62,056 nt of DNA from Rhodothermaceae bacterium (lineage in GTDB: Bacteria; Bacteroidota; Rhodothermia; Rhodothermales; Bin80). Position numbers and translations under genes: made by a program. The stretch's first letter is position 1, and each line of letters opens with the position of its first letter. Positions 6,093 to 41,168 of this stretch are shown in pieces. The notes under the pieces were generated by a model. That model searched no databases. It was not told where the DNA came from and saw only the letters and a program-made list of their open reading frames with translations. Where the stretch lies: positions 1-62,056 of the forward strand of contig VXLY01000010.1 of the NCBI GenBank assembly GCA_009841335.1, in the 5' to 3' direction.

Positions 6093-6097
6093 TCCAA

Positions 6098-7057: not shown

Positions 7058-7059
7058 GC

Positions 7060-13465: not shown

Positions 13466-13621
13466 TACTGCCTACGAGGTGTATAGTAGAACGGAACGGA
13501 ATTACAACGGAAGCTGTCGTATCGGTGAGCAGGAATCAATCCAATTGCATTCGTCCACAAAGTGTTCGATTTAAAAATGTTCGGGCGTTCTGAAACTAAT
13601 CAAATCTGGCTGTGAAATAAC

Positions 13622-14647: not shown

Positions 14648-14648
14648 A

Positions 14649-17947: not shown

Positions 17948-19165
17948 TCAGGAGGGCGGCTTGAGCTCATGCATGCGAACAGTAGGGGTTCCTTCTTCGG
18001 GTTCCAGGAGCACATAGTCCTCCCCAAACTCCCAAACGTAGCTGGGCATTGCGGCCAGGTGACAGACAAACCCGCCATCAGCTCCAAACGCAAGCCAACC
18101 GCGTTCTTCGCCAGGCAAGTTGGACCTTTTCACCCAGATCCGTCCATCACGCCCTATCTTGACAGTAGATATGTAGGGAAACATATCCGCCACAGGACGG
18201 TCCGGGCTGATTGCAGCATCATCATACTCGTCCCATGCATCACCCCGGCGCTCCCTTCGATTGTCCCGCCACGCGCGTACATGCGCATCCGTAACGTTTT
18301 GGCCCGGATCATCGTATCGCAAAATCATCTTCACATTGAGTTTTTGGTCCAGGAGTACGACTTCCGGCTTACTGCCATGCACAAGTGCGATTGTTGAACC
18401 CAGCGCGTCAATATTCGGCCTTGATCCGAAGAGTTCACTGGTCCTAAGAGTCGATGGACCTCCACGGATGGTGCCTTGTCTTGGCCCTAGCATTTTGAAA
18501 GGCCCATCGGTAAGGTTGCCATTGGAATCGTGGACTTCCACGAAAAAGGACAGCCGCTCAGAAAAATCTGACTTGCGCCCCAAATTCTGTCTTGCGTTGA
18601 TGGTGAATCCATTATCCAGTACGCCTCCGCCGCGCGAAGAATTCAGGTATACAGGCTTTAGATTCACCTGTCGCACTAATTCACCTTCTGCAGTGAAGAC
18701 GTTGTATCTCCACGGGCGGAAGTCCCCTGCCCACACGGTATCACCTGCCGTAACCCATACGCCCAATGGTTGCCGAAATTCACCAGGCCCTTCACCTGAT
18801 CGCCCCATAGACCGCAGATGCCGCCCTTGACGGTCATAAATGCGTACTTCGGCTGCGCTGTGGTCGGCAACCACGATGGATTCGTCAGAGAGTCGCGCGA
18901 TGCCCCGAATCACGGAAAACCATTGATTGTCATCGTATTCATTGTCGCCGATAACCAGCGTTGGTTCTTCGCTGATGGTGCACGTGGCGTCCGAATTCAG
19001 GGGGGCGCTCGTGACAACCTCAGCCCCAGTGGTATCTAAGGTGACGGATTCCTCATGGGGCAGGTCTGTGGCGACGCGTTCACCGGGCTGCTGACCGCCA
19101 CAGGCAGCGGTGAGGACCACCAGTGTAACGAGCAAGACGTGTGAGCAGCAATTCAGGGCAGTCAT
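17948..19165 (-). CDS. 6-bladed beta-propeller lipoprotein, tandem copy 1
   Basis: A 405-residue predicted lipoprotein with lipobox LTAAC (cysteine 22). The body is a 6-bladed beta-propeller: IYDRQGRHLRSMGRSGEGPG is the typical blade-to-blade repeat of this family, followed by EFRQPLGVWVTAGDTVWAGD. It is a tandem paralogue of the gene at 19330-20547: the same length, the same signal and lipobox position, and most residues identical by eye. The frame extends to 19228, but the start at 19165 is the one shared with the paralogue. The similarity continues upstream of the start and around the stop, so a whole unit with its promoter region was duplicated. Function unknown; probably periplasmic or surface. 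Confidence 0.82.
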   Translation of the reverse strand: MTALNCCSHVLLVTLVVLTAACGGQQPGERVATDLPHEESVTLDTTGAEVVTSAPLNSDATCTISEEPTLVIGDNEYDDNQWFSVIRGIARLSDESIVVADHSAAEVRIYDRQGRHLRSMGRSGEGPGEFRQPLGVWVTAGDTVWAGDFRPWRYNVFTAEGELVRQVNLKPVYLNSSRGGGVLDNGFTINARQNLGRKSDFSERLSFFVEVHDSNGNLTDGPFKMLGPRQGTIRGGPSTLRTSELFGSRPNIDALGSTIALVHGSKPEVVLLDQKLNVKMILRYDDPGQNVTDAHVRAWRDNRRERRGDAWDEYDDAAISPDRPVADMFPYISTVKIGRDGRIWVKRSNLPGEERGWLAFGADGGFVCHLAAMPSYVWEFGEDYVLLEPEEGTPTVRMHELKPPS

Positions 19166-19329
19166 ATTCAGTTCGGGTAGGGAATGACAGTGTGTATCTG
19201 TAAGAATGTGCCGTGCAACAAAATACATAAGATCTATGATATCTAATGAATGATTGAGTATTCCGAGGGAAATGGCCCACTTCGATCGGAATACTCACGA
19301 TGTGCGCGAGACGCTAATTGGGCGATAGG

Positions 19330-20547
19330 TCAGGAGGGCAGCTTTAGCTCATGCATGCGAACAGTCGGAGCTCCTTCTTCTAATTCCAAGAGCACATAGT
19401 CCGCCCCGAACTCCCTTGTGATACCCGGCATTTCGGCCAGGTGACAGACAAACCTGCCTTCGGCTTCATACGCAAGCCAACCGCGTTCTTCGCCAGGCAA
19501 GTCGTACCGGTTAATCCAGATCCGTCCATCACGCCCGATCTTGACATATGAGGTGTACGGAAACATATCCGCCACAGGACGATCGGGGCTGACTTCAGCA
19601 TCATCATACTCGTTCCATCCACGCCCCCGGCGCTCCCTTAGATTGTTGCGCCACGCGCGTACATGCGCACGTGTAACGTTTTGACCCGGATCATCATATC
19701 GTATAATCATCTTCACACCGAGCTTTTGGTCCAGAAGTAGGACTTCCGGCCTGCTGCCGTGCACAAGTGCGATGGTTGAACCTAGCGCGTCAATATCCGG
19801 GCTTGATCCGAAGAGCTCTGGGGTCACAAGATCTGACGGGCCTCCACGGATAATGCCTTGTCTTTCCCCCAGCATTTTGAGAGGACCATCCGTACGGTAG
19901 CCACGGGGATCGTGGACTCCCACGAAAAAGGACCGCCGCTCAGAAAAATCTGGTTTTCGCCCCCATATCTCTCTCGCGTTGATGGTGAACCCATTATCCA
20001 GCACGCCTCCGCCGCGCGAAAGGTTCGGGTATCCAGGCTTGAGATTCACCTGTCGCACGAATTCACCCTCAGCAGTGAAGACGTTGTATCTCCACGGACG
20101 GTAGTCCCCTGCCCACAAGGTATCACCTGACGTTACCCACACGCCAAATGGATTCCGAAATTCACCAGGCCCTTCACCTGATCGCCCCATAGACCGCAGA
20201 TGCCGCCCTTCACGGTCATAAATGCGTATTTCGGCTGCCCGGCGGTCGGCCACCACGATGGATCCGTCAGAGAGTCGCCCAGCGCCCCGAATCACGGAAA
20301 ACCACTGATTGTCATCGTGCTCATTGTCGCCGATAACGAGCGTAGGTTCTTCGCTGATGGTGCACGTGGCGTCTGAACTCAAGGGGGCGCTCGTGACAAC
20401 TACGGCCCCAGTAGTATCTAAGGTGACGATTTCTTCACCGGGCAATTCCGTGACGACAGGTTCAGGGGGCGGCTGACCGCCACAGGCAGCACTAAGGATC
20501 ACCAGTGCGAGGAGCAGGACTCGTGAGCAGCGATTCAGGGCAGTCAT
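19330..20547 (-). CDS. 6-bladed beta-propeller lipoprotein, tandem copy 2
   Basis: A 405-residue lipoprotein with lipobox LSAAC (cysteine 22), a near twin of the gene at 17948-19165. The propeller blade GRHLRSMGRSGEGPGEF is identical in both. Differences are spread along the protein, and both frames are intact, suggesting that both copies are kept under selection. The frame runs back to 20685, but that extension is not conserved in copy 1, so ATG 20547 is preferred. The stops of both copies lie in nearly identical sequence (AGGTCAGGAGGGC at about 17944 and 19327). Function unknown. Confidence 0.82.
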   Translation of the reverse strand: MTALNRCSRVLLLALVILSAACGGQPPPEPVVTELPGEEIVTLDTTGAVVVTSAPLSSDATCTISEEPTLVIGDNEHDDNQWFSVIRGAGRLSDGSIVVADRRAAEIRIYDREGRHLRSMGRSGEGPGEFRNPFGVWVTSGDTLWAGDYRPWRYNVFTAEGEFVRQVNLKPGYPNLSRGGGVLDNGFTINAREIWGRKPDFSERRSFFVGVHDPRGYRTDGPLKMLGERQGIIRGGPSDLVTPELFGSSPDIDALGSTIALVHGSRPEVLLLDQKLGVKMIIRYDDPGQNVTRAHVRAWRNNLRERRGRGWNEYDDAEVSPDRPVADMFPYTSYVKIGRDGRIWINRYDLPGEERGWLAYEAEGRFVCHLAEMPGITREFGADYVLLELEEGAPTVRMHELKLPS

Positions 20548-20881
20548 ATTCAGTTTGGGTATGGACAGACAGAATGTATCTGTACAATAAGTCCTGCGCA
20601 GCATATAATGCATAAGATCTGATGAATGAGTCAGCGCCAGGCGGAGGATAGCCCCCGGCTTTTTTATTAAACCTTTGTCATTCAAACCACTAAGCTTGAG
20701 CTTGTGGAGGAGTTAAGGTTCCTTGCAGGTTACGACTGTATCAAGCAAGAAGATTCAGGATGTTATTGATATGCTCGACCGCCTGATGGATTTGTTTATC
20801 CCGATTTGTCTTGAAAACGTCGGCACGATATTTGCAAAAAAGGAAATCACACTCTCACCTAAATCTTATCACTCCATACAA
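20548..20881. other. Divergent intergenic region
   Basis: About 330 bases between the propeller gene and the beta-barrel gene; both promoters should be here. A plus-strand frame (20723 onward) is open through it into the barrel gene but reads as an unlikely N-terminal extension. Nothing else was recognised. Confidence 0.4.
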
Positions 20882-22047: not shown

Positions 22048-22182
22048 ATGAAGTCCCTCGTCACAGTCGAATGTGCTGAAGATCTGGCGTTATTGCAGGA
22101 AGGTTTAGTGGAGCCGTTACAAACTCAAGCTTAGCAGCTCACTAATCCATCTTGCCACTTAGCGTTACACGACACGGCAGGC

Positions 22183-23037
22183 GTGCTGGTCGCCCGTTGT
22201 TCACTGTGGGAGAGAAATGATCCTGGCGGTGCGCAAGTCTTGGACGGTCTTGTCGGTCACTACGCGGCTGCCAATGCCGATGTAGGCAAAGAATTGTTAG
22301 AATACGCCTCAGATCGACATCGGGCAAAAGGTCACGAGCGGGTAATTGGTCCAATGGACAAGTCCACATGGCACCGCTACAGGCTCCTGACAGATCGTGG
22401 GACTGAACCGACATTCTTTTTGGAGCCCGACAATCCCGATGAGTGGCCAAGCCATTTCACCGAGGCAGGGTTCAGGCCTCTAGCGACTTACACCTCTTCG
22501 CTCAATGCCGATCTCAGTCAAGTTGACCCACGCTCTGACGGACGTCGGGCCGAATTTGAGCGCAATGGTATTACTATGCGGAAATTCGACATGGCACGCT
22601 TCCAAGATGAACTGACAGCCATCCATGAACTGTCGCTAGTGGCATTCGCCGGGAATTTCCTGTACAGCCCAATTAGACTCGAGGAATTTCTGACATCTTA
22701 CGCGCCAATCCGTGCACATTTAATCCCTGAATTAGTCCTTCTCATAGAGCATGATAAGCGTCTCGTAGGCTTCATATTTGCGATTCCAGACCGGTTGGAA
22801 CCGGCAAGGGGTGCGCCTATGCGCACGGTCATCGTTAAGTCTATGGCGGTGCATCCGGAGTACGGTGGGAGTGGGCTTGGTGGGGTTTTGATGGATGAGG
22901 TTCAGCGAGCGGCACGAAGTCTCGGGTTTGAGCGCGCCATTCACGCACTCATGCAGGAGACTAATCTGTCCCGACGCATATCAAGTCACTACGGCACTAC
23001 CATCCGTCGCTATACGCTCTACGAGAAGGTGTTGTAA
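22183..23037 (+). CDS. GNAT-family acyltransferase, first gene of the lipid operon
   Basis: A 284-residue protein (GTG start) resembling two-domain GNAT N-acyltransferases. HRAKGHERVIGPMDKSTWHRY is typical of the first half, and the second half has the acetyl-CoA region SMAVHPEYGGSGLGGVLMDE (the R/Q-x-x-G-x-G/A loop). The same frame is open upstream to ATG 22048 except for a TAG at 22132-22134. The upstream codons read as a normal GNAT beginning (MKSLVTVECAEDLALLQEGL), and after the TAG the sequence continues HLALHDTAGVLVARCSLW. The gene may therefore be a 330-codon frame broken by one amber codon, or translation may restart at 22183 without the first strand and helix. The ligase gene starts 4 bases after its stop. 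Acceptor substrate unknown. Confidence 0.7.
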   Translation: MLVARCSLWERNDPGGAQVLDGLVGHYAAANADVGKELLEYASDRHRAKGHERVIGPMDKSTWHRYRLLTDRGTEPTFFLEPDNPDEWPSHFTEAGFRPLATYTSSLNADLSQVDPRSDGRRAEFERNGITMRKFDMARFQDELTAIHELSLVAFAGNFLYSPIRLEEFLTSYAPIRAHLIPELVLLIEHDKRLVGFIFAIPDRLEPARGAPMRTVIVKSMAVHPEYGGSGLGGVLMDEVQRAARSLGFERAIHALMQETNLSRRISSHYGTTIRRYTLYEKVL

Positions 23038-23041
23038 GAGG

Positions 23042-24649
23042 ATGAACATCTGCCACATACTGACTGAGCAGGCTGCTGAACGACCAAATCAGCCTGCCAT
23101 TATTGAGGGGGCTGGTAAGCGTACCCGCTCGGTGACATTTGCTCAACTTGCCGAGCGGTCAGCCAAAGCGGCGGCATTGCTCCGCTTGTCGGGGTTGACC
23201 CAGGGGGATAGAATCCTTCTCTTCCAGCCGATCTCGATTGAGCTTTATGTGGCGCTACTCAGCATATTCCGTCTTGGTTTGGTGGCTACCGTACTGGATC
23301 CATCGGCCGGACGCAGGCACATTGAGCAGTGTTGTGAAATTGCCCGTCCCAAGGCTTTTCTGGGCCCGGCGCGGGCGCATCTCTTGCGATTCCTCTGTCG
23401 GAGTGTGCGCCGAATTGAGTGTCACCTAGTGACTACGGCATGGGCTCCCTCTGCAATTCGCTGGTCCAAACTTGACCGGCTTAACCCTTTAGACTCCATC
23501 GCAACCTGCTTGTCATCCCATGATGCTCTGCTTACATTTACCAGCGGGAGCACCGGAATTCCCAAGGCAGCGGTCCGAAGCCATGGTTTTCTGCGAGCAC
23601 AACATGAGGTCTTGGCGGCTTCAATTGATCTGGAGCCCCAAGAAGTTGACCTACCTACCCTGCCGATTTTCGTGCTGGCCAATCTGGCCTCGGGTGTGAC
23701 CTTTGTCATCCCTCAGTGTGATCTTCGGAAACCCGGCTTTATTGAACCTGGTCCGGTGCTCGCGCAGCTTCAGCATCACCAGGTTACCCGGACTGTGGGT
23801 TCGCCGGCGCTATACAACAGGCTACTTGAGGGGGTTCGTTCAATAGCTGGAAACGAAAACGAGCGCCAAGAGGTACGTCTTGGCCCACTTCGGAAACTCT
23901 ATACCGGCGGTGCTCCCGTCTTTCCCCGCCTCCTGCAGGAACTTCGTGCGGCCATGCCCAAGGGTCATGTGATCGTGGTCTACGGTTCTACCGAAGCCGA
24001 ACCCATCTCGCACCTTAACTGGGACGAGGCAAGTGACCGCGACCGGGTCGGCATGTATGCCGGGAAGGGGCTTCTGGTAGGAAAGCCGGTGAATCAGATC
24101 AGGCTTCGCATTGTGGATAACCGATGGGGCGAACCCCTGCCAGACATGAACGCAAATGAGTTTGTTAAGCTTGAACTTCCTCCTATGCGCAGGGGTGAAA
24201 TCGTTGTGAATGGCCCTCACGTCCTCACCGGATATCTGAACGGAGTCGGCGACGAGGAGACCAAATTCCGGGTTGACGATGAGATCTGGCACCGCACCGG
24301 TGACGCAGGCTATCTTGATAAGGAAGGCCGACTCTGGCTTCTAGGGCGTGCGGGTGCTGTTATTCGGGACGAACGGGGCACAATCTACCCCTTCGCCGTT
24401 GAATGCGCGGCGAGCCAACTGAATTGGATTGAGCGGAGTGCGCTTGCAAGCCTCAATGGAGAGCGCCTGCTTGCTGTACAGATGAAACCTGGAATTCCCG
24501 CGGCAGCGGAACACAAAACACTTACAACACTTTCCTGGGCTCGCCTGGACAGGGTCGTAAGCATTCCCCGTATCCCGGTTGATCGCCGTCACAATGCAAA
24601 AGTAGACTATACTTCACTAATAAAACAACTTAAACGCCATGTCAGCTGA
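23042..24649 (+). CDS. AMP-forming acyl-CoA ligase-like enzyme
   Basis: A 535-residue member of the ANL (adenylate-forming) superfamily. It has the P-loop LTFTSGSTGIPKAAV (about 168-182), YGSTEAEPISH (A5 region), GDAGYLDKEGRLWLLGR (A7/A8), and a C-terminal lysine in HNAKVDY where the adenylation lysine (A10) sits. It would activate a carboxylic acid as acyl-AMP and then form a thioester, or a beta-lactone as in OleC, which it resembles in general layout. The ATG 23042 lies 4 bases after the GNAT stop; the frame opens further upstream inside the GNAT gene. Its end overlaps the reductase start by 11 bases. The substrate is unknown; the operon suggests a lipid or isoprenoid acid. Confidence 0.82.
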   Translation: MNICHILTEQAAERPNQPAIIEGAGKRTRSVTFAQLAERSAKAAALLRLSGLTQGDRILLFQPISIELYVALLSIFRLGLVATVLDPSAGRRHIEQCCEIARPKAFLGPARAHLLRFLCRSVRRIECHLVTTAWAPSAIRWSKLDRLNPLDSIATCLSSHDALLTFTSGSTGIPKAAVRSHGFLRAQHEVLAASIDLEPQEVDLPTLPIFVLANLASGVTFVIPQCDLRKPGFIEPGPVLAQLQHHQVTRTVGSPALYNRLLEGVRSIAGNENERQEVRLGPLRKLYTGGAPVFPRLLQELRAAMPKGHVIVVYGSTEAEPISHLNWDEASDRDRVGMYAGKGLLVGKPVNQIRLRIVDNRWGEPLPDMNANEFVKLELPPMRRGEIVVNGPHVLTGYLNGVGDEETKFRVDDEIWHRTGDAGYLDKEGRLWLLGRAGAVIRDERGTIYPFAVECAASQLNWIERSALASLNGERLLAVQMKPGIPAAAEHKTLTTLSWARLDRVVSIPRIPVDRRHNAKVDYTSLIKQLKRHVS

Positions 24650-25931
24650 TCTTCGCGGTGTTCGGGGGTTCTTCCAACGCCTGTTCGCCGAACGCACTCA
24701 ACAGGAAATAGAGCAGGGTCTGACACCCTCGCTGAAGGACATTCCGCCAAGCGTCCCCCGGGGAGATACACCCGGGACGATTTCTTCAGAAGAAGTAGAT
24801 CGACGCTGGGACGTCCTTGATGTGGACGCGTCCATCAGGCATCAATTGCTTGATGCCATGACACGTGAACAAATGAATTCGTACAGTAAGAATATCGAAA
24901 ACTTTATCGGCACCGTGAAACTCCCTATTGGATCAGCCGGACCGCTGCGGGTACGCGGACTGTTTGCAAACGGAGATTATTATGTGCCACTCGCTACGTC
25001 AGAAGCTGCACTGGTAGCGTCTTACGGCCGGGGAGCGCAGGCCATCACGAAGGCTGGCGGCTGTACCGCGGCGACGATATGGGAGGGCGTGACCCGTGCT
25101 CCCGTCTTTGTCTTTAATAGCTTAGTTGAGATCGGCAAGTTTATGGCATGGGCAAGTGAGCACGCGGACATGTTCAAGGACATCGCTGCATCCACTACGC
25201 GACATGGTCGGCTTATCCGGACTTGTTTCAACGTAGAAGGCAATCATATCTACCTAATTTTTGAATTCGTCACCGGTGATGCTTCTGGGCAAAACATGGT
25301 CACGATTGCAACCGATGCCGTGTGCCGTTTTATCCTTGACCAGACCCCGGTTCAGCCCGCGTACTGGTTTGTGGAGGGTAATCACTCAGGAGATAAGAAG
25401 GCGTCGTATATGTCCTTCCAGAATGTGCGTGGAAAGAGGGTCACAGCCGAGGTGACGCTCACACCCGAAATTCTCAAAGGTTACCTGAAAACAAGCGCCA
25501 GCCGGATGGTTGATTTATATCAGGTCGGGGTCGTCGGCGGAGTCATGAGCGGCAACATCGGACTGCAGGGACATTATGCCAATGCAATGGCGGCGCTATT
25601 CATCGCCTGCGGTCAGGATGCCGCGTGCGTAGCTGAATCCGCTGTAGGTGTGACTCGAATGGAGCGCACGGACGGCGATTGCCTGTACGCATCTGTAACA
25701 CTTCCCAACCTCATCGTGGGTACGGTTGGAGGGGGAACGGGTCTGCCGAGCCAGAGTGCCTGCCTCGACATTCTCAAACTTTCTGGGCCGGGCAACGCCT
25801 CTGCGCTTGCCGAGGTATGCGCTGCACTCGTTCTGGCGGGTGAGCTATCGATCTCCGCTGCAATGTCATCGCATGGTTTCACTAGTGCACATCAGTCGCT
25901 GGCGCGGGGACCGGTGAAGAAAAAGTCATGA
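24639..25931 (+). CDS. Hydroxymethylglutaryl-CoA reductase (class I-like)
   Basis: A 430-residue HMG-CoA reductase. All four catalytic residues are recognisable: E122 (LATSEAALVAS), K253 (GDKKAS), D327 (IACGQDAA) and H418 (TSAHQSLARG). The substrate segment ENFIGTVKLPIGSAGPL and the NADPH motif GDASGQNM are also present. The family makes mevalonate from HMG-CoA with two NADPH, a four-electron reduction of a thioester to an alcohol. No other mevalonate-pathway gene is in the window. Its neighbours are lipid-type enzymes, so it may supply mevalonate or act on another acyl thioester made by the adjacent ligase (inference). It overlaps the ligase by 11 bases and UbiA by 4 (ATGA). Confidence 0.9.
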   Translation: MSADLRGVRGFFQRLFAERTQQEIEQGLTPSLKDIPPSVPRGDTPGTISSEEVDRRWDVLDVDASIRHQLLDAMTREQMNSYSKNIENFIGTVKLPIGSAGPLRVRGLFANGDYYVPLATSEAALVASYGRGAQAITKAGGCTAATIWEGVTRAPVFVFNSLVEIGKFMAWASEHADMFKDIAASTTRHGRLIRTCFNVEGNHIYLIFEFVTGDASGQNMVTIATDAVCRFILDQTPVQPAYWFVEGNHSGDKKASYMSFQNVRGKRVTAEVTLTPEILKGYLKTSASRMVDLYQVGVVGGVMSGNIGLQGHYANAMAALFIACGQDAACVAESAVGVTRMERTDGDCLYASVTLPNLIVGTVGGGTGLPSQSACLDILKLSGPGNASALAEVCAALVLAGELSISAAMSSHGFTSAHQSLARGPVKKKS

Positions 25932-26860
25932 ACCCCGACCGTGATCGAGGAATTTGGCGCTGGTGGGTGTATCAAAAAGAGCGTTTCCCGCTCGTGCAGC
26001 ACGGGCCACTGATTTTCGCCTTCAGTTTCAGTGCGGTTGCCTTCGTATGGATGCTGCGCTCATCTGCCGGATGGCCCAACCTTTTGTCTGTGGTGGTTGC
26101 ATTCGGCTCTTGTCTGATCTTTTTTCTTCAGCTGCGCATCGCGGACGAATTCAAAGACAATGACGAGGACACACGTTATCGCCCCTATCGTCCTGTCCCG
26201 CGAGGTCTGGTGACCTTGCGCGACTTGGCCGGACTCTTCGTACTGGGTGCCATAGTGCAGGTGGGTCTGGCACTGTGGCTCGATGCGCGACTTCTTATTC
26301 TGCTGCTGATTACCTGGACTTACCAGGCATTGATGGGCAAGGAGTTCTTTTTGGGAGAATGGCTGCGTGGCAAACATCTCACGTACATGGTCACCCATAT
26401 GGCCATTATGCCGCTTGTGGACCTCTATGCTACGAGTACCGACTGGCTTGCCTTTCAGGGTCATCCTCCGGCCGGACTTTTCTGGTTTCTCTTGGCCAGC
26501 CTCTTCAATGGCATGGTGATCGAAATTGGCCGTAAGATTCGCAGTCCGGAGGATGAGGAGGAGGGGGTCCCTACCTATTCGGTTGTATGGGGACGCCGGA
26601 GGGCATTGGGTACATGGTGGCTGGTCATGGGACTCACACTAGTTTACGCCTGTATTGCTGTGCGTCGAATTGATTTTTTCGTGCCATTGGTAATCATTCT
26701 CGGCCTATTCCTTGGCGGAGCAGTATTTGTCGGAACCCATTTTATGCGTCGTCAGACCAAAGGAGCGGGCAAATGGATTGAGAATTGGTCTGGGGTCTGG
26801 ACACTGGTGCTCTATTTGAGCCTTGGGCCAGTTCCGCTGTTCTTGAGGGAATTGGGATGA
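25928..26860 (+). CDS. UbiA-family prenyltransferase
   Basis: A 310-residue membrane protein with about eight hydrophobic helices. The first aspartate-rich motif of the UbiA superfamily is RIADEFKDNDED (70-81), followed by RPYRPVPRGLV. The second acidic motif lies in GRKIRSPEDEEEG (about 199-211). The family transfers a prenyl chain from a diphosphate to an acceptor within the membrane (quinone rings, heme, chlorophyllide, or glycerol lipids as in archaeal DGGGP synthase). Nothing visible fixes the acceptor. It starts by ATGA overlap with the reductase gene, and its own TGA overlaps the next ATG. Its place beside a BtaA-like enzyme and a phytol-kinase-like protein points to a lipid rather than a quinone product (inference). 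Confidence 0.86.
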   Translation: MNPDRDRGIWRWWVYQKERFPLVQHGPLIFAFSFSAVAFVWMLRSSAGWPNLLSVVVAFGSCLIFFLQLRIADEFKDNDEDTRYRPYRPVPRGLVTLRDLAGLFVLGAIVQVGLALWLDARLLILLLITWTYQALMGKEFFLGEWLRGKHLTYMVTHMAIMPLVDLYATSTDWLAFQGHPPAGLFWFLLASLFNGMVIEIGRKIRSPEDEEEGVPTYSVVWGRRRALGTWWLVMGLTLVYACIAVRRIDFFVPLVIILGLFLGGAVFVGTHFMRRQTKGAGKWIENWSGVWTLVLYLSLGPVPLFLRELG

Positions 26861-29595
26861 ACTACGTGCTCTCGCATCTGGATGGGGTTGATCTCAGCCA
26901 AATGGGCGGCAAGGCTGCAGCGCTGGCTACGCTGGCCGGCACAGGACTGAAGATCCCGACATGGTTTGTAATTGTTCCGGATGCCTTTGAAGCCAGCCTC
27001 TCACTGGAGCAGCGACAGACTCTGCTTCAGGCCGTAGACCAGAACGAGGTCCAGACTCTTTTTGATGAGGTCCTGCCGACGCCTGACCTCATGAAGGAGG
27101 TGACGGAGCAGTTTGCGGCACTGGATGAAGAGCCCCGCTATGTCGCCGTACGTTCGTCAGGAGTACAGGAGGACGGTGTGGAGCACTCCTTTGCCGGCCA
27201 GTTCGACAGCTTTCTATTTGTCACTCGCGAGAATTTGCCAGGCCGGATTGTAGACGTATGGAGATCCGGCTTCAACGAACGTCTGTTGGCCTACAGGAGC
27301 GAGAATAAGCTTCAAGGGTTACCACAGGCACCTGCGGTATTGGTGCAGACGATGGTAGACAGTGAGGTCTCAGGGGTTGCATTCAGTGCAGACCCGGTCA
27401 CTGGACGCCGCTCTGTGGCCGTCGTGTCTGGGCTGCGCGGCCTTGGGACAGCATTGGTCGGCGGGGATGCCGATGCTGATACCTGGCGTGTTCAATTCGA
27501 CGGAACGATCCATGATCGGAATATCGTGGCCAAAACGCTTGAACATCGGCCGGCTCCCAATACTCATGAGGGCGTTGTGGCGCGAGACATTGTTGAGCCT
27601 GCGGCTTCTGAACCGGCACTTACCGACAAGCAGGTTGCGCAGGTAGCTGAGCTGGCGCGTTGCTCAGAGCGGCATTTCGGCCGGCCCCAGGACATCGAAT
27701 GGTCAATGCGCGGCGACGAATTCTTCCTGCTTCAGTCGCGGCCAATCACCTCTCTTGCAGCCATCTCGGATCCAGACGGAATACATGCTATCTGGGACAA
27801 TTCGAATATTGTAGAGAGTTATAGCGGAATTACAACTCCACTCACGTTTAGCTTTGCGCTGCACGCCTATGAGGGGGTGTATCGTGAGTTCTGTCGCCTT
27901 TTGGGCGTGCCTAAGGCTAGCATTGAGGCCAACGATCTTACATTTCGGCGCATGCTCGGTCTGATCCGCGGCAGAATTTACTATAACCTCCTGAACTGGT
28001 ACCGCGTTATCGCGTTGCTCCCGGGCTACATGTTCAACCGCCGCTTCATGGAGCAGATGATGGGTGTCCGGGAGAGTCTTCCTGAAGAAGTCACCAAAGC
28101 GACATCCAATGCAACTCGGACGGCGCGCCTTGTTGACCTGTTTCGACTGATCCGCACCATGGCAGGAATGGTTGTCAACCAAATGCGTCTACCCCGCATG
28201 ATTGAGCGATTCCACAACCGCCTCGACGCAGCGCTCCTTCCACCGGATCCACCACTTGAGGTCAGGCGGCTTGACCAGTTGATCGCTGATTATCGTGAGC
28301 TTGAGCTATCCCTCCTGACGCGTTGGGATGCGCCGCTGATCAATGACTTCTTTGCAATGATTTTCTTTGGGGTCCTTGGTCGCCTTACGTCTAAATGGTG
28401 CTCTGAGGAGGAGGACGACCAAAGCTCACTGCAAAACAATCTGGTTTGTAATCAGGGAGGAATGATCAGCGCTGAGCCTGCAAAGCGCATCGTTGAGATG
28501 GCTACGTTGGTAGCTCGCCATGAAGATTTGATTGATACCCTTTGTCATAGCACGACGGCAGTGGCTGTTCAAGCATTGCATGGTCATGAAGAGTTGGCAC
28601 GGCTCTACGACGATTACCTTGACATCTTCGGTGATCGATGTCTTGATGAGCTCAAGCTCGAATCAACTACGCTATTTGATGATCCTGAGCCCCTGGTTCG
28701 CTCCATCGGGCATGCTGCTGCCAGGCTCGCACGCGGCCAACTGTTTGAAGCCGGCATCTCGTCGGATGTGCGGGAGAATGCGGAGCAGAGGGTACGTCAG
28801 GCCTTAGGGCGGAATATTCTACGACGCTCCGTTTTCGCCTGGGTACTCCGTAACGCGCGCAACCGTGTACGTGATCGTGAAAATCTGAGGTTCGAGCGTA
28901 CCCGCCTCTTTGGTCGTATACGGCGAATCTTCCTTGAGGCCGGGCAGAGATTCTTTGCTGAGGGGATCCTTGATGATCCGCGTGACATCTTTTATCTCGA
29001 GCTCGAGGAAATCGTGTCCTACACGGAAGGAGCTGCATCATGCCAGGATCTTCGTGGTTTGGCAGCGGTCCGCCGCTCCGCTTTCGAGCGTTATGCCACG
29101 CTTGATGTCCCGGCCGACCGCTTCGAGACTTTCGGTTCACCCTACATTGCCAACCGCTACGAACCACAGGTAGCAGGTCAGACTGGAGATGATGGAGTCT
29201 CCGATACCAGCGGGCTCCGGGGTATTGGCTGCTGCCCAGGCATCGTGAGGGGTCAGGTACGCGTAATCCGAGATCCGAGAGGGGCCAAGTTGCAACAGGG
29301 GGAGATCCTGGTCGCGGAGCGTACTGATCCGGGGTGGATCATGCTTTTTCCCGCCGCCGCTGGCATTTTGGTTGAGCGCGGTAGTCTCCTCTCACACTCG
29401 GCGATCGTGGCCCGTGAAATGGGGATCCCTGCGATAGTCTCGCTCGCCGGGATCACGACTCGGGTTGGGACTGGTGACTGGGTTGAAATGGACGGCGCAC
29501 GAGGTACTGTGCGCCTGGATCTTGCGTTGGACTCCGAACCTGATTCAGATTCCGGTGGGCGCATAGTCGAGCCGGTACACGGGACTGACACATGA
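26857..29595 (+). CDS. PEP-synthase-like dikinase, rifampin-phosphotransferase architecture
   Basis: A 912-residue protein in three parts. The N-terminal PPDK/PEP-synthase ATP-grasp domain (1-320) shows VGGKAAALATL-type start, VRSSGVQEDG, QTMVDSEVSGVAFSADPVTG and DIEWSMRGDEFFLLQSRPIT. A long central domain (330-790) is not recognised. The C-terminal swivelling phosphohistidine domain has H847 in GSLLSHSAIVAREMG. The PEP/pyruvate TIM barrel of true PEP synthase is absent, so the order matches rifampin phosphotransferase: ATP phosphorylates the histidine, which passes the phosphate to a hydroxyl on a substrate bound by the middle domain. In this operon the substrate may be an isoprenoid or lipid alcohol (inference). 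It starts at ATG 26857 overlapping the UbiA stop; the frame opens at 26785. Confidence 0.85.
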   Translation: MNYVLSHLDGVDLSQMGGKAAALATLAGTGLKIPTWFVIVPDAFEASLSLEQRQTLLQAVDQNEVQTLFDEVLPTPDLMKEVTEQFAALDEEPRYVAVRSSGVQEDGVEHSFAGQFDSFLFVTRENLPGRIVDVWRSGFNERLLAYRSENKLQGLPQAPAVLVQTMVDSEVSGVAFSADPVTGRRSVAVVSGLRGLGTALVGGDADADTWRVQFDGTIHDRNIVAKTLEHRPAPNTHEGVVARDIVEPAASEPALTDKQVAQVAELARCSERHFGRPQDIEWSMRGDEFFLLQSRPITSLAAISDPDGIHAIWDNSNIVESYSGITTPLTFSFALHAYEGVYREFCRLLGVPKASIEANDLTFRRMLGLIRGRIYYNLLNWYRVIALLPGYMFNRRFMEQMMGVRESLPEEVTKATSNATRTARLVDLFRLIRTMAGMVVNQMRLPRMIERFHNRLDAALLPPDPPLEVRRLDQLIADYRELELSLLTRWDAPLINDFFAMIFFGVLGRLTSKWCSEEEDDQSSLQNNLVCNQGGMISAEPAKRIVEMATLVARHEDLIDTLCHSTTAVAVQALHGHEELARLYDDYLDIFGDRCLDELKLESTTLFDDPEPLVRSIGHAAARLARGQLFEAGISSDVRENAEQRVRQALGRNILRRSVFAWVLRNARNRVRDRENLRFERTRLFGRIRRIFLEAGQRFFAEGILDDPRDIFYLELEEIVSYTEGAASCQDLRGLAAVRRSAFERYATLDVPADRFETFGSPYIANRYEPQVAGQTGDDGVSDTSGLRGIGCCPGIVRGQVRVIRDPRGAKLQQGEILVAERTDPGWIMLFPAAAGILVERGSLLSHSAIVAREMGIPAIVSLAGITTRVGTGDWVEMDGARGTVRLDLALDSEPDSDSGGRIVEPVHGTDT

Positions 29596-30734
29596 GTACC
29601 GAAGCCGCGGCCCGTGCCGATTTTTCATTTGTTCGCTATGCGCAGTGCTGGGAGGATGCCGACATCCTTCTGGAGGCGCTTGACGTTGCCGAAGGAGATG
29701 TTTGCCTTTCAATCGCCTCGGCGGGAGAAAACTCGCTCTCGCTCCTTTCCTGCAAGCCTGCGCGTGTCATTGCCGTAGATATGAATCCGGCCCAGCTGGC
29801 CTGTCTTGCGCTGCGCGTTGCAGCCTATCGGGTACTCAGCCACGAGGAGCTTCTTCAACTGATCGGTTCTCGTGAGTGCGGCGATCGGGAAGCCCTTTAC
29901 CGAAGGTGCCGTGGCGTCCTTGAAGGTGGAGCGCGGGATTTCTGGGATGCCCGCCCGCAATTAGTCCAGGCCGGGATTGGTAACGCTGGCAAATTTGAGG
30001 ACTACTTCGCGGTGTTTCGCAGGAAAGTATTACCCTGGATTCATCCTCGGCACCGGGTTGAGCAACTCCTTGCAGGAGGTGCCGCAGACGAACGCCGCCA
30101 CTTTTACACTCGCCATTGGGCCAACCGGCGCTGGGAACTCCTCTTTCGACTCTTCTTTTCCCGCTTTGTGATGGGTCGGATGGGGCGAGACCCGGAGTTT
30201 TTCCGGTATGTAGAGGGATCAGTCTCCGAACGCATCCTCGCGCGCGCAAGACACGCCCTGACCGAGCTTGACCCTGCCGCCAACCCCTATCTTCAGTGGA
30301 TTCTCACTGGACGTCACACCACAGCTCTCCCACACGCCCTCAGAAGAGAAAATTTTGACATCATCAGAGAGAATCTGGACCGGCTTGAATGGCACTGCCT
30401 GTCAATTGAGGAATTACTCGACGCCGAACCTGAATTGCTTGTCGATTGCCATAATCTGAGCGACATATTCGAGTACATGTCCGACGACTATTTCCACGAG
30501 TTACTCTCGAAACTGACAGCGCATTCTCGGGATGGAGCCCGACTCGCATACTGGAATATGCTTGTGCCCCGCAGCCGACCACCGGAATTGGCCAGCAAGC
30601 TCATTCCAAACCACGAGCTTGCTGAGCGACTCCATCTTCAGGACAAGGCGTTTTTTTACAGCCGTTTCGTTGTTGAGACCGTGGCAGGTGGGGCTGGCTG
30701 CCTTGCGTCTCCTGATGGGGAGGCCTCGCACTGA
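29592..30734 (+). CDS. BtaA-like 3-amino-3-carboxypropyl transferase (DUF3419)
   Basis: A 380-residue DUF3419/BtaA family protein. Visible signatures are FVRYAQCWEDADILLEAL near the N-terminus, the SAM-binding strand CLSIASAGENSLSLLS, IAVDMNPAQLACLALRVAA, and the later NLSDIFEYMSDD and YWNMLVPRSRP segments typical of the family. BtaA moves the 3-amino-3-carboxypropyl group of S-adenosylmethionine to the free hydroxyl of diacylglycerol, the first step of betaine-lipid (DGTS) synthesis. The N-methyltransferase BtaB is not present here, so the product may keep a free amine, be acylated by the GNAT, or the acceptor may differ from diacylglycerol. It overlaps its neighbours on both sides (ATGA at 29592 and TGATG at 30732). 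Confidence 0.83.
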   Translation: MSTEAAARADFSFVRYAQCWEDADILLEALDVAEGDVCLSIASAGENSLSLLSCKPARVIAVDMNPAQLACLALRVAAYRVLSHEELLQLIGSRECGDREALYRRCRGVLEGGARDFWDARPQLVQAGIGNAGKFEDYFAVFRRKVLPWIHPRHRVEQLLAGGAADERRHFYTRHWANRRWELLFRLFFSRFVMGRMGRDPEFFRYVEGSVSERILARARHALTELDPAANPYLQWILTGRHTTALPHALRRENFDIIRENLDRLEWHCLSIEELLDAEPELLVDCHNLSDIFEYMSDDYFHELLSKLTAHSRDGARLAYWNMLVPRSRPPELASKLIPNHELAERLHLQDKAFFYSRFVVETVAGGAGCLASPDGEASH

Positions 30735-32107
30735 TGACACACGCGTCCAATTTCATTTCCATTGCGGTCATACTCGGTGCTCTTGCCGTGCTCTTGGTTG
30801 GTCTCAAAGCAGTGGAAAAGAAAAAGCGTTTTCACCCCGAGATCCTTCGCAAAGGGGTCCATGTCGGCATGGGGCTGGTTGTATTACCGTTACCGTGGAT
30901 GCTAGAGGATGCCTGGCCGATGATCGTTCTGGGAGGGCTCGCGTGTACCGCCTTGGTCGCTACCCGACTGATTCCTAGTCTGCGCGGAGGCATTGGAACC
31001 GTCTTGGGCGGAGTAGATCGGGAGGGTCTGGGCGAGATTTACTTTGCAATTTCGGTCACGATCCTTTTCCTGATCAGCCAAGGAGAGTGGTTGCTCTATG
31101 TGGTTCCAATCTTGACGTTGGCCTTGGCGGATGCTGCCGCGGCCGTGATAGGTCTCCGCTACGGGCAAACGCAGTACCAGACTTCGGAGGGCATCAAGAG
31201 TGTTGAGGGGTCTTTGGCGTTTTTCCTCGTGGCATTCTTCAGCGCTCATCTGCCCCTCCTGCTTCTGACGGACACGGGGCGCGTCGAGGTCGTTCTCATT
31301 GCAACGATCCTCGCGATCCTTGTGATGATGCTGGAACTCGTGTCATGGCGGGGGCTGGACAACCTGTTCATCCCTCTTGGTACATATGCTTTTCTGCGCC
31401 TCTATCTTGATGAGGATCCCCAAGCACTCCTCATTCGTGTGCTGGTTGCCGTTGCCTTTACCACGTTCGCACTGGCTTGGCGTCGTCGAAGTAAACTTGA
31501 TGACAGCGCATTGGTCGGTTGCGCGCTCTTCGGCTATGGTGCCTATTTGTTGGGCGGTTGGCAGTGGCTGATCGCCCCCTTCGGATTTTTTGCCATCCAT
31601 ACACTGGTGTGGCCGCGTTCTAGCAAGCGCCGATCACACACTGTGTACACTATGCTCTCAATTGCCGGTGGCGCATTGCTCTGGCTGTTTGTCCACGCTG
31701 TTGCCGGACACGAGTGGTTCGTGATTCCCTTCGCCACAACTTTTGCTGCTCAGCTCACATTGTATGGTATCTCGCGAGTGACTCTTCAGCCCGAGCGTGG
31801 AAACCGGTTGATCCGCCGACTGGGCGCGGTCGGGCTCGGCTGGATTCTAGTCTATGTTCCTACACTGATGATAGTCTTCGGCCGTGGCATAGATCTGGGA
31901 AACTTGATGGTACCTGGTTCCGAAGCGATGAGACTCTTGGCTGACCTCGGTTTTGGACTGTTGGCTATTGGTGTCGTGGCAGCAGTATTCCTTCTATTGA
32001 CTCCACGAATCTATGGTCCTCCACTCCGAGCCAACCTGATCAATCCGATCTTCGCAATCCTCGGGCTCTTCGCATCGCTTGTCGCCAGTTTGCGTTGGCT
32101 GACATAG
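30734..32107 (+). CDS. Phytol/dolichol-kinase-like membrane protein with C-terminal extension
   Basis: A 457-residue membrane protein with about 13 hydrophobic helices. The first half (1-220) resembles the CTP-dependent phytol/dolichol kinase and CDP-diglyceride synthetase-like family: HPEILRKGVHVGMGLVVL (33-50), DAAAAVIGLRYG (about 136-147) and GIKSVEGSLAFF. The second half (about 240-457) is a further helical bundle that I cannot assign; in outline it may resemble the DUF92/TMEM19 family, which includes phytyl-phosphate kinase, and would then make a two-step prenol kinase fusion (speculation). The usual length of phytol kinase is about 200-300 residues, so the extension is unusual. It is the last gene of the operon and shares one base with the BtaA-like gene. 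Confidence 0.75.
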   Translation: MTHASNFISIAVILGALAVLLVGLKAVEKKKRFHPEILRKGVHVGMGLVVLPLPWMLEDAWPMIVLGGLACTALVATRLIPSLRGGIGTVLGGVDREGLGEIYFAISVTILFLISQGEWLLYVVPILTLALADAAAAVIGLRYGQTQYQTSEGIKSVEGSLAFFLVAFFSAHLPLLLLTDTGRVEVVLIATILAILVMMLELVSWRGLDNLFIPLGTYAFLRLYLDEDPQALLIRVLVAVAFTTFALAWRRRSKLDDSALVGCALFGYGAYLLGGWQWLIAPFGFFAIHTLVWPRSSKRRSHTVYTMLSIAGGALLWLFVHAVAGHEWFVIPFATTFAAQLTLYGISRVTLQPERGNRLIRRLGAVGLGWILVYVPTLMIVFGRGIDLGNLMVPGSEAMRLLADLGFGLLAIGVVAAVFLLLTPRIYGPPLRANLINPIFAILGLFASLVASLRWLT

Positions 32108-32446: not shown

Positions 32447-33703
32447 ATGATTTTTCTGGCTTTATTTGAGAAAACCTCCCTCATCAAGAATGTACGCACG
32501 ACTGCCATCGTAATTTGTGCCCTTGCTTTGACCTTCACGTTGCTTGGCACCGGCTGCAGTTCAACTGGCACTGAACTTGGTGGAGGCTGGCCCGGCACGA
32601 TTGATACGCTTGCTTCCGGAGAGATCATAGTTCAAAATACCGACGAACCGCTCTGGTCATCGGCAGGGACTTGGCGGGTAGTGGAGGAAATGAGGATCGG
32701 AAGTGACGCGGGTGACGACGCAATTCTATTCGGCAATATTAGCTCCTTTGATGTGGATTCACAGGGGCGCGTTTTCGTACTTGATGCCCAATCGCAAGAG
32801 ATCCATGTCTTCGACTCGGACGGCGCCCACATACGCACAGTAGGGGGCAGGGGAACTGGGCCGGGGGAATTTGAAAATGCCAGCGCGGTTGACTTGAGCC
32901 GTGATGGAGAAATCTGGGTCATGGAAATGGGAAAGGGTCAGCTTTCCATACTGGACGCGTACGGGGGCTACCTTAGAAAAGAATCGATCGGTGGCGTTGG
33001 CTGGAGCCAATGGCCATATCCGGGTGGTTTCGATCTGTTAGGCCGGTACAACGCTTTAATCAGATCCGTCCACGATGAGGGTACGACGGAGTCATTCGCA
33101 CGGTTTGATCAGTCTCTAACTCCACTGGATACGATCCCGGTCCCGGAAAAACCTGACGCTGAATACTTCAGCAATGAGACCGGATCCATGCAAGTGGCTG
33201 TTCCCTACCAAGGTAGCATTGATTGGTGCTTTGCTCCAAACGGTAATCTATGGACGCTCCAAACCGATCAATACGAGCTTGCCGAAATCACTGGCCACGG
33301 TGAAACGCTTCGCAGGGTCACCAAGGAATATGAACCGATTCGGGTAACCGCTGAAGTCAGGACGGAGTTGGGCCAGAGCATGGAGTGGTTCACTGACCAA
33401 GGAGGGAAGATCGACTGGTCAAAGATTCCCAATACTCGGCCGGTGGTGAGGACCCTCTTTTGCGACGACAAAGCTAATCTTTGGGTGAGGCGAGTCACCA
33501 TAAAGTCAGATGATGACGAGGAGAGTGAAGGGCCGCTTTATGATCTGTTTGATCCTGAGGGACGTTATCTGGGAATGCTTAAATTCCCGTTCAATTTGCG
33601 TTCATATCCGATCGTGCGGAACGAGATTATATATGGCCACACGCGGGATGAGCTTGGTGCCGACATTATCGTGAGGGCGCGGATTGAAAAGCCCACTGCC
33701 TGA
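32447..33703 (+). CDS. 6-bladed beta-propeller lipoprotein
   Basis: A 418-residue propeller lipoprotein. The N-terminus is long, with a basic segment before the hydrophobic signal and the lipobox LGTGC at cysteine 37. The family repeat IHVFDSDGAHIRTVGGRGTG, then PGEFENASAVDLS, is nearly the same blade as in the lipoproteins at 18-20 kb. No sequencing-type break was seen. It is followed after about 400 bases by another, more distant member. Function unknown; probably outer-membrane or periplasmic. Confidence 0.8.
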   Translation: MIFLALFEKTSLIKNVRTTAIVICALALTFTLLGTGCSSTGTELGGGWPGTIDTLASGEIIVQNTDEPLWSSAGTWRVVEEMRIGSDAGDDAILFGNISSFDVDSQGRVFVLDAQSQEIHVFDSDGAHIRTVGGRGTGPGEFENASAVDLSRDGEIWVMEMGKGQLSILDAYGGYLRKESIGGVGWSQWPYPGGFDLLGRYNALIRSVHDEGTTESFARFDQSLTPLDTIPVPEKPDAEYFSNETGSMQVAVPYQGSIDWCFAPNGNLWTLQTDQYELAEITGHGETLRRVTKEYEPIRVTAEVRTELGQSMEWFTDQGGKIDWSKIPNTRPVVRTLFCDDKANLWVRRVTIKSDDDEESEGPLYDLFDPEGRYLGMLKFPFNLRSYPIVRNEIIYGHTRDELGADIIVRARIEKPTA

Positions 33704-34111: not shown

Positions 34112-35254
34112 ATGCAGTTCAATAATCGACCTCTCACCTGCGTGCTCCTTATCGCACTCCTTGCTGTATGTTCGGATCAGGAATCCTCAGGCCAGCCCTC
34201 CGAGGTGGGCCAAGTTGATGTCTCGGAAGTGCTGCGGCTGGGGGATGAAGCAGCTGGTGATACAGTGCTCTTCTCGCAGATTACGCATCTTGCGGTCAAC
34301 AATCGAGGGGATATCATTGTGGAGGAATCACGTCGGCCGTCAATAAGGGCATTTAACAGCGAGGGCGCATACGTGAACGATATCGGGGGTGTTGGCCAAG
34401 GCCCGGGTGAGTACAGATACACCTGGGGAGTGGTTGCAGGGCCGGCGGATTCGGTGTATGTATGGGAGGTCTACACTGATCGAGTAATGGTATATGATCC
34501 CCACGATTTTTCTTTTGTCCGCCACGTCACTGTGGAAGATGACGGTATTAAGGGGGCAGTGGGTATCATAGGGATTGGTGAGGCCGGGTGGATCATGCCA
34601 ATACAAGCAAGGCCTTTCCAGCCGGGGGACGATGGGAAAATGACCGTTCACGAGGATACTGATTTTGAAATCCGCAGGGTTGATCTGGACGGAAACTATG
34701 GGCAGGAGATTATGGCAACGGTACGGGATAATGAGATGATTTATCACGTTTTTGAGGAGAGCGGTGGTTTTACGATACACGGTGTACCGTATGCTCGAAA
34801 TGCGGCTTGGGCGATTGGTCCCAATGACATGCTTTACTATGGATGGGGCGACGCAATCCAGATCTCGGTGGCTGATGTTGATGGTTCAATCCAGACGCGT
34901 ATTCACCATGAACATGATCCCGTTTTCATCACGGATGCAGAAGCAGAAGCTGCGGCGCAGGAAATGGTGAATGAGGAGCATGAGAGATTACTTGCCGCGC
35001 GAGGGCTCCACAAGACCAAGCCAGCATTCGAAACCTTTGTAGTGGACGAGGCCGGTAACATATGGGTCAAATTGAGTTCTATCGAAAACGCCACCACTGC
35101 AGACTGGCTGATCCTGGATATGGAGAGTGAGGTGGTTGGCGTCGCTGCGCTTCCGATTAACGTGACCCTCAAAGTGATTCGTAATGGCCGCGCTTATGGT
35201 ACTGAGCAACTGGATGGTGAAGATATCATGGTCGTGGTCTACGAAGTAGAATAA
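34112..35254 (+). CDS. 6-bladed beta-propeller lipoprotein (divergent member)
   Basis: A 380-residue predicted lipoprotein with a short signal ending in LLAVC (cysteine 20; valine before the cysteine is not the usual residue, so lipidation is probable rather than certain). The propeller signature is AFNSEGAYVNDIGGVGQGPG, followed by EYRYTWGVVAGPADSVYVWE. It shares the fold and the GxGQGPGE blade with the other propeller lipoproteins here but differs in most other positions. It is in the same direction as the gene at 32447, 408 bases apart. Function unknown. Confidence 0.78.
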   Translation: MQFNNRPLTCVLLIALLAVCSDQESSGQPSEVGQVDVSEVLRLGDEAAGDTVLFSQITHLAVNNRGDIIVEESRRPSIRAFNSEGAYVNDIGGVGQGPGEYRYTWGVVAGPADSVYVWEVYTDRVMVYDPHDFSFVRHVTVEDDGIKGAVGIIGIGEAGWIMPIQARPFQPGDDGKMTVHEDTDFEIRRVDLDGNYGQEIMATVRDNEMIYHVFEESGGFTIHGVPYARNAAWAIGPNDMLYYGWGDAIQISVADVDGSIQTRIHHEHDPVFITDAEAEAAAQEMVNEEHERLLAARGLHKTKPAFETFVVDEAGNIWVKLSSIENATTADWLILDMESEVVGVAALPINVTLKVIRNGRAYGTEQLDGEDIMVVVYEVE

Positions 35255-37105: not shown

Positions 37106-37672
37106 ATGCGTTGCCATTCACCATCCCGACTCCAGATTGTCAGCATCCTGATTGTCGGCGGTTTGGTAGTCACTGCGGCGGTTATTCAATCCGCTCCCGC
37201 GGGCCGTGTGAGCTGGCCTCTTTTTGTTAATACATCAGACTCGCTGCCACTTGGGTTTTATCGTGTAACAAAAGTGTTTGATCTCCAACGCGGACATGTG
37301 CTCCGCACATGCCTTCCTGCCGAGATTGGGCGGGCCGCGGTCCAACGGGGCTATGTTCGACGGGGAACCTGTCCTAACGGTTCAGCACGAATTGGAAAAC
37401 CCATCATCGCCCTGCAGGGAGATACGGTAGTGGTCTCTGACGGAAGAGTCCAGGTTCAGGGACGGGGTAATCACGAAGCCCCTGTATACGCGCATGATCG
37501 AAGGGGTAGAAGTCTGGCCAACGCCGTAGGCACGCACATCATGCAACCTGGTGAATGTTTTTTATTGAGCACACATAGCCCATTCAGCTATGACAGCAGA
37601 TACTATGGTCCTATTTCCTGTGGGGAAGCGCCGTACTTTATCCTAGTAGTAAATGGATTCCAAGCGCCTTAG
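37106..37672 (+). CDS. traF: TraF-like conjugal signal peptidase (S26)
   Basis: A 188-residue membrane-anchored serine peptidase of the S26C/TraF family, which in IncP-type conjugation processes and cyclises the TrbC pilin. One N-terminal hydrophobic helix (11-29) is followed by NTSDSLPLGFYR (42-53, probable nucleophile S46) and GKPIIALQGD (97-106, catalytic lysine K98); STHSPFSYDSRYYGPI is the conserved C-terminal box. It overlaps trbB by 20 bases. No trbC pilin gene is present in the window, so its native substrate is missing here. Confidence 0.82.
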   Translation: MRCHSPSRLQIVSILIVGGLVVTAAVIQSAPAGRVSWPLFVNTSDSLPLGFYRVTKVFDLQRGHVLRTCLPAEIGRAAVQRGYVRRGTCPNGSARIGKPIIALQGDTVVVSDGRVQVQGRGNHEAPVYAHDRRGRSLANAVGTHIMQPGECFLLSTHSPFSYDSRYYGPISCGEAPYFILVVNGFQAP

Positions 37673-40506: not shown

Positions 40507-40689
40507 ATTGTTTACCTCATTTGGTGAAAGAGAACTTTGAACAACTCAATAGCTTCGTATCCGCATATCCAACCAAGTGAACCACCAATTCCGGGTCGGG
40601 CGAAGTGGGCCACTAATTCCACATGGATACGAAACTCCATCAAGTTAATGTGTTTCGTGACTAGATTGCGGCACGCTTGTGGTCTCCGA

Positions 40690-40950: not shown

Positions 40951-41168
40951 TTTTGCGTATGCCGAGAGCCGGGGCCGCTAGAAGCGTGGAAAATATTACT
41001 AGGGTTCTACCCTGCAGGTTGTGGACAGAATCACAAATGACATTGCAGGGTAGTATGTCAGGTATTACGTGTCATGCTGATTCCCAGAATGCAATTCACT
41101 TCATTCTCACCAGCCTTTATGATACGCGCAAGTTTGTTGAACATGCGGACATCATTCATTGCATGACT

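Follow-up and report, generated by a model that had tools for sequence, protein, structure and literature searches.

A seven-gene cluster conserved across bacterial phyla, with a probable fatty acyl-CoA reductase, as a candidate aminolipid pathway

What would be made by a compact run of seven genes that places a homologue of 3-hydroxy-3-methylglutaryl-coenzyme A (HMG-CoA) reductase beside a UbiA-family transferase, a dikinase and a BtaA homologue? The question is raised by a contig of Rhodothermaceae bacterium (VXLY01000010.1), part of a genome bin of 3.49 Mb. All positions are those of the whole stretch of 62,056 nucleotides that was analysed, here called the window, and the seven genes occupy 22048-32107 on its plus strand. 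The sequence-only reading of this DNA proposed that the seven genes form a single pathway leading to a prenylated betaine- or ether-type polar lipid. The single-pathway idea is borne out by a gene order conserved across phyla, and it is near certain that the seven genes constitute one conserved pathway. The best explanation as a whole, held with slightly better than even confidence, is that they are a lipid-biosynthesis unit, inherited and transferred as a block, whose product would be an aminolipid built from a fatty alcohol. The features of the run are as follows.

22048..23037, plus strand: GNAT, a tandem-GNAT N-acyltransferase with a stop at codon 29, open frame 22183-23037 (PF00583)
22132-22134, plus strand: in-frame TAG within the GNAT gene, a Tyr codon in the nearest relative
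23042..24649, plus strand: LIG, an AMP-forming acyl-CoA ligase (fatty acid CoA ligase / OleC-like; PF00501, E 3.7e-53)
24639..25931, plus strand: HMG-CoA reductase (HMGR)-like reductase with the signature of FcrA, a fatty acyl-CoA reductase (PF00368, E 4.5e-111)
25928..26860, plus strand: UbiA-family membrane transferase (PF01040, E 2.7e-14)
26857..29595, plus strand: DIK, a rifampin-phosphotransferase-like dikinase (PF01326, PPDK_N, and PF00391, PEP-utilizers)
29592..30734, plus strand: BtaA homologue of the DUF3419 family of S-adenosylmethionine (SAM)-dependent 3-amino-3-carboxypropyl transferases (PF11899, E 1.4e-70)
30734..32107, plus strand: PK, a polytopic membrane protein and putative cytidine triphosphate (CTP)-dependent lipid-alcohol kinase (no Pfam match)

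Pfam matches confirmed the families that had been named for this compact run, apart from the seventh gene, PK, which has none. Start codons were set from relatives; the mechanical open reading frames of LIG and DIK start further upstream, at 22895 and 26785. With these starts adjacent genes overlap by 1 to 11 bases: the ligase ends at 24649 and the reductase starts at 24639, the reductase ends at 25931 and UbiA starts at 25928, UbiA ends at 26860 and the dikinase ATG is at 26857, the dikinase ends at 29595 and BtaA starts at 29592, and BtaA ends at 30734, where PK starts. The exception is the 4-base gap between the GNAT stop (23037) and the ligase ATG (23042). A promoter and terminator scan of the locus found no excess over shuffles, which is compatible with internal promoters or with none.

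To evaluate the conservation of the run, 84,980 species were searched with the dikinase only, and the neighbours played no part in the choice of loci. The query was built from cluster dikinases, and the best 80 matches were listed. The main count covers the 50 dikinase-selected loci with at least 5.5 kb on either side, with partner genes counted on the same strand. All seven families were present on one strand in 31 of these 50 loci, and UbiA was found in 44, BtaA in 40, GNAT in 39, the ligase in 38, PK in 35 and the reductase in 32. In 27 of the 31 complete loci the order is HMGR-UbiA-DIK-BtaA-PK-GNAT-LIG, and circular permutation of this order gives that of the window. The adjacencies UbiA>DIK (41), DIK>BtaA (39), GNAT>LIG (35) and BtaA>PK (34) were frequent, and no neighbours are more constant than UbiA and DIK. 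There is no eighth conserved gene, with no further family in more than 10 of 87 loci. Pairwise distances among the seven proteins correlate (rho 0.51-0.87 over the 21 loci in which each of the seven has a clean length; permutation p 0.001 for both pairs tested), as expected for a block inherited together. The conserved synteny that the earlier reading had asked for as a check was thus found, with 31 of 50 loci complete and the order kept from phylum to phylum.

About a dozen phyla have loci in which most or all of the seven families occur, although some carriers are genome bins and possibly mis-binned. They include Planctomycetota, Acidobacteriota, Cyanobacteriota, Verrucomicrobiota, Alpha- and Gammaproteobacteria, Desulfobulbus and Bacteroidota, as well as a Trueperaceae bin (Deinococcota), Eremiobacterota, Elusimicrobiota and Melainabacteria. 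The full set is present in the isolates Rubritalea profundi, Paracoccus xiamenensis, Harenicola maris, Rhabdobacter roseus and Dyadobacter soli, and Microcoleus sp. FACHB-1515 has five of the seven families. The 137 kb plasmid of Roseinatronobacter sp. S2 (NZ_CP121116.1) carries all seven as overlapping genes, with the reductase spanning the start of the record, and its PK and GNAT are labelled 'hypothetical protein' in RefSeq. Closer to the window, six genomes of the genus and family, the window's included, have all seven genes in identical order, while other genomes of the window's genus are without the UbiA and reductase genes. Carriage within one genus is patchy (5 of 10 sampled genomes).

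The reductase indicates what kind of lipid this could be. The catalytic residues Glu559, Lys691, Asp767 and His866 (human HMGR numbering) are retained in all 45 cluster reductases, and the HMG-binding residues are lost in all 45: Ser684 is Glu throughout, and Lys735 is replaced by Ser (27), Ala (10), Gly (5), Cys (2) or Phe (1), that is by a small residue in 44 of 45. Leu862 is Phe in every one. The window's copy follows the same pattern, keeping E559, K691, D767 and H866 with S684 changed to E, K735 to G and L862 to F. FcrA is an HMGR-derived, NADPH-dependent reductase of long-chain fatty acyl-CoA that is inactive on HMG-CoA, and its signature is Ser684 to Glu, the lysine to a generally small residue and Leu862 to a bulky one, with the catalytic residues kept; some FcrA have been suggested to feed ether-lipid synthesis (Grossi et al., PMC11948995). 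That paper prints the signature lysine as Lys795, which is taken here as Lys735 from its salt-bridge role. The mevalonate pathway is absent from the carriers: HMG-CoA synthase (PF08540) was found in 0 of 14 carrier genomes and in 4 controls, and IspH, of the other isoprenoid pathway, in 14 of 14. Since the FcrA signature is present, HMG-CoA synthase is absent and IspH is present, the cluster reductase very likely forms a fatty alcohol, and mevalonate supply was rejected as its role. The expectation that ligase and reductase would give an activated acid and an alcohol is thereby supported, and the isoprenoid part of that proposal is not. Separately, the non-cluster HMGR-like proteins of loci L020, L021 and L023, from the same order, show the FcrA signature with Trp at 862, and by that signature these 'HMG-CoA reductases' are probably fatty acyl-CoA reductases too.

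The UbiA homologue has one of its two motifs intact. The first Asp-rich motif, DExKDxxxD, is kept in all 48 members (E/D74, D77 and D81, with a single D for E at 74). The second is replaced by an invariant R202-K203 in 48 of 48, where digeranylgeranylglyceryl phosphate (DGGGP) synthase 6m31 has K-D (KDFED). UbiA-family prenyltransferases use the second Asp motif for the prenyl diphosphate, and with this motif lost, 'prenylated' is the weak word of the earlier proposal. The solved relatives are chlorophyll synthase and DGGGP synthase, and the latter, which forms an ether, is the nearest (6m31, E 1.4e-8 with a 34-sequence profile); NCBIfam models match below their cut-offs. From the motif change it may be suggested, quite tentatively, that the UbiA homologue is an ether synthase which takes a non-allylic, phospho-activated alkyl donor through the basic Arg-Lys site, with an undescribed alkyl-ether N-acylated homoserine aminolipid as the product. 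To our knowledge, ether synthesis from such a donor has no precedent in the UbiA superfamily.

DIK has an ATP-grasp domain, a middle region and a swivelling His domain. Only PPDK_N and the mobile His domain were found, Pfam giving no match to PEP-utilizers_C, the phosphoenolpyruvate (PEP)/pyruvate barrel; with this C-terminal barrel lacking, PEP synthase was rejected as its identity. The catalytic His871 is present in 72 of 73 members, the remaining one having a gap. The best matches in the PDB are 5fbs and 5hv1 (209 bits over 936 residues for the best), which we take to be rifampin phosphotransferases, and NCBIfam models for PigC, RedH and Rph score far below cut-off. Actinobacterial relatives of DIK in Lentzea and Streptomyces (L110-L112, L116, L117 and L119; 35-36% identical) lie in differing, mostly unannotated neighbourhoods and were rejected as cluster members, and genes similar to DIK were also seen on Streptomyces clavuligerus plasmids.

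PK was modelled with AlphaFold2 (predicted local distance difference test, pLDDT, 91). Its top VIA structural matches are entries 4q2e and 4q2g of CdsA, an enzyme that uses CTP (Z 8.3 and 8.2, residues 45-227), a level which the tool regards as borderline; Foldseek gave no significant match with the model. K155, G159, D133, D209, N210 and P214 are invariant, and the motifs presumably resemble those of prenol and dolichol kinases. The C-terminal half gives a trace of similarity to DUF92 (phytyl-phosphate kinase-like; E 0.038 and 5.6) that is too weak to use. The N-terminal half of the model resembles the CdsA/dolichol-kinase superfamily, so that PK is a putative CTP-dependent lipid-alcohol kinase, and a kinase for a lipid-like alcohol, as had been proposed, is weakly supported.

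The remaining enzymes would supply the acyl group and the head. LIG scores 381 bits against NF006754, under its cut-off of 478. In 13 of the 14 carrier genomes the cluster protein is the sole member of DUF3419, and cluster copies score 181-256 bits against the Pfam model, versus 332-353 bits for a non-cluster family from relatives in the same order. A preliminary BtaA tree shows several very long branches, and none of the conclusions draws on it. For GNAT, an AlphaFold2 model of the relative in L040 (pLDDT 95) has tandem GNATs as its best Foldseek matches, ahead of MshD and N-myristoyltransferase. An aminocarboxypropyl donor step by BtaA with GNAT acylation as the end step is plausible and supported. 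In the window, the GNAT gene is present as described, with 22048 the start in relatives, but its codon 29 is a TAG (22132-22134) and the longest open frame runs from the GTG at 22183. The TAG is absent from the five relatives compared, and the closest relative (L026, GNAT 96% identical) has a Tyr codon there; it may be a base error of the metagenome-assembled genome or a real null allele.

Put together, these assignments suggest the following route. LIG would convert a long-chain fatty acid to its CoA ester, the FcrA-type reductase would reduce the acyl-CoA to a fatty alcohol, and PK would phosphorylate the alcohol at the membrane. DIK would carry out a second phospho-activation with ATP, of either the alkyl phosphate or the acceptor, and the UbiA-like enzyme with its rewritten donor site would attach the chain; the simplest linkage would be an ether, like the one made by DGGGP synthase. 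A SAM-derived 3-amino-3-carboxypropyl (homoserine-type) head would then come from the BtaA homologue, and the tandem GNAT would N-acylate the amine of this head group using acyl-CoA. The product would be an alkyl, probably ether, N-acylated homoserine-type aminolipid, with an MMPL exporter adjoining in some lineages. The product class, an alkyl, N-acylated homoserine-type aminolipid, is a tentative assignment, and the substrates, the order of the steps and the ether linkage are likewise proposals.

Several points weigh against this route. UbiA enzymes normally require an allylic diphosphate, and a saturated alkyl chain does not have one. Known ether-lipid genes (PlsC-like, AGPS) do not recur among the clusters, and HMGR is absent from about a third of loci, often with core partners still present; in these loci either a different reductase would act or the alcohol step would be dispensable. 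The GNAT model is equally close to acetyl- and acyl-transferases, PK is called a kinase on its motifs and on a Z of 8.3, borderline for helical proteins by the tool's own standard, and the distance correlation among the seven proteins is also expected from shared species ancestry.

Some loci seem to replace parts of the set. The HMGR of L033 carries a fused EcKL/APH-type kinase domain, and the 15 kb of this locus contain no PK match; L102 has a similar HMGR/EcKL gene. L101 (Bacteriovorax) has no reductase or PK match; divergent from its ligase-UbiA-DIK genes is a run with a DAGK_cat kinase, an NAD_binding_4 (acyl-CoA reductase-type) gene and a BtaA-family protein, and a further gene in this run resembles, as we take it, an acyl-ACP reductase. 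It is suggestive that these would be functional replacements which fit an alcohol-then-phosphate logic. MMPL exporters are present in L033 and L074, with relatives of the L033 copy in L054, L086 and L109, and inserted genes include a CDP-alcohol phosphatidyltransferase (L081) and a CdsA-like gene (L107); these neighbours are suggestive of a lipid context. Among occasional extras are a P450 beside 10 loci and sulfotransferase, MMPL, AurF-like and CDP-alcohol genes. Sulfotransferase and cytochrome P450 families stand side by side at the cluster in L057 (1022-3506), L087, L088 and L105 (about 5.2-7.9 kb), in Verrucomicrobia and Rhodobacteraceae, and possibly tailor the lipid.

Two alternatives survive best, and each is unlikely. 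In the first, BtaA acts on the fatty alcohol to give O-alkyl-homoserine, GNAT converts this to N-acyl-O-alkyl-homoserine, and UbiA, DIK and PK modify or dimerise the two-chain lipid, with no glycerol-type ether. The family of BtaA transfers to alcohols, an FcrA-type enzyme would give the alcohol, the GNAT has a tandem N-acyltransferase fold, and no glycerol-handling gene recurs in the clusters; yet UbiA and DIK, the most constant neighbours, are left without a clear core role. In the second, the chemistry is identical, but the compound is secreted as a signal or natural product and does not serve as a structural membrane lipid. Patchy and plasmid carriage would fit this, as would the P450 and sulfotransferase genes adjoining some clusters (L057, L088) and the occasional MMPL exporters, but no nonribosomal peptide synthetase or polyketide synthase gene and no dedicated regulator recurs in the clusters, and the short uniform set is more like a lipid pathway. 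An isoprenoid lipid is less probable again. Here HMGR would lead to mevalonate, PK and DIK to a prenyl diphosphate, UbiA would prenylate, and BtaA and GNAT would finish the head; the kept UbiA fold and first Asp motif, the solved UbiA relatives and the prenol/dolichol kinase-like motifs of PK are compatible with it, but the lost HMG-binding residues, the missing HMG-CoA synthase and the invariant Arg-Lys of UbiA speak against it. That the genes are chance neighbours drawn from separate pathways, for which only the variety of enzyme families speaks, is refuted by the complete set in 31 of 50 independently selected loci, the overlapping genes and the order kept across phyla.

The proposed aminolipid route was compared with known systems, and we know of no pathway that shares more than one or two of its steps. 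No description of the seven-gene set was found in open-access full text, most subscription journals being outside the scope of the search. The BtaA/BtaB route to the betaine lipid diacylglyceryl-trimethylhomoserine (DGTS) is alike in its DUF3419 aminocarboxypropyl transferase and homoserine-type head, but the clusters have five or six enzymes which DGTS synthesis does not use. A betaine-lipid operon was rejected, as a BtaB-like N-methyltransferase partner is not recurrent in the 87 loci (the rest of the genomes were not searched). The FcrA wax-ester route of Natronomonas pharaonis and Ca. Promineifilum breve also has an HMGR-derived reductase beside a fatty-acid CoA ligase (PMC11948995), whereas N. 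pharaonis FcrA has Trp862 against Phe862 in the clusters, and the clusters have extra transferases. A wax-ester pathway was rejected, the wax synthase WS/DGAT not recurring in the clusters (genomes were not searched for it). Archaeal DGGGP synthase is ether-forming and the nearest solved UbiA relative, but has KDFED for the clusters' RK, and the cluster setting is fatty, not isoprenoid. Rifampin phosphotransferase and the prodigiosin ligases PigC and RedH share the plan of ATP-grasp and His domain without a PEP barrel, but are distant from DIK and have other partners and presumably another substrate. Class-I HMG-CoA reductase shares its fold and four catalytic residues with the cluster reductase, which is without the substrate-carboxylate residues, in carriers without the HMG-CoA synthase of the mevalonate pathway. 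The enzyme families are therefore all known; what would be new is the pathway and, provided that the motif change is read correctly, the donor chemistry of UbiA.

Elsewhere in the window, a plus-strand run at 4209-15704 encodes a thiamine pyrophosphate enzyme, a sugar-binding protein, an ABC permease and ATPase, an aldehyde dehydrogenase, a BNR/sortilin protein, a GFO/IDH/MocA oxidoreductase and a DeoC-type aldolase, and resembles an operon for the catabolism of inositol or sugar acids. The cluster is flanked by four 6-bladed beta-propeller (DUF5128-like) proteins, two upstream on the minus strand (17948-19228 and 19330-20685, both slightly under the Pfam cut-off) and two downstream (32447-33703 and 34112-35254). 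An S26-type peptidase followed by a T2SSE/VirB11-type ATPase (37106-38609) is possibly the remnant of a conjugative element adjoining the cluster. At 40677-45206 lies a subtilase of 1509 aa that unusually combines a long leucine-rich-repeat region with a putative Ig domain.

If the aminolipid reading is true, about a dozen phyla share an uncharacterised lipid pathway, parts of which are misleadingly annotated (as a mevalonate enzyme, a prenyltransferase or a PEP synthase) or appear in RefSeq as hypothetical. Cultured carriers are found in Dyadobacter, Rhabdobacter, Paracoccus, Roseovarius, Harenicola, Rubritalea, Microcoleus and Roseinatronobacter. 'Unidentified aminolipids' have been reported in Spirosomaceae (PMC11356934), and that the cluster product explains some of them is only a suggestion. 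On the aminolipid reading, many bacterial HMGR homologues encoded where no mevalonate pathway exists would also gain a role, the range of DUF3419 would reach past betaine lipids, and the UbiA family would count an enzyme with a new donor.

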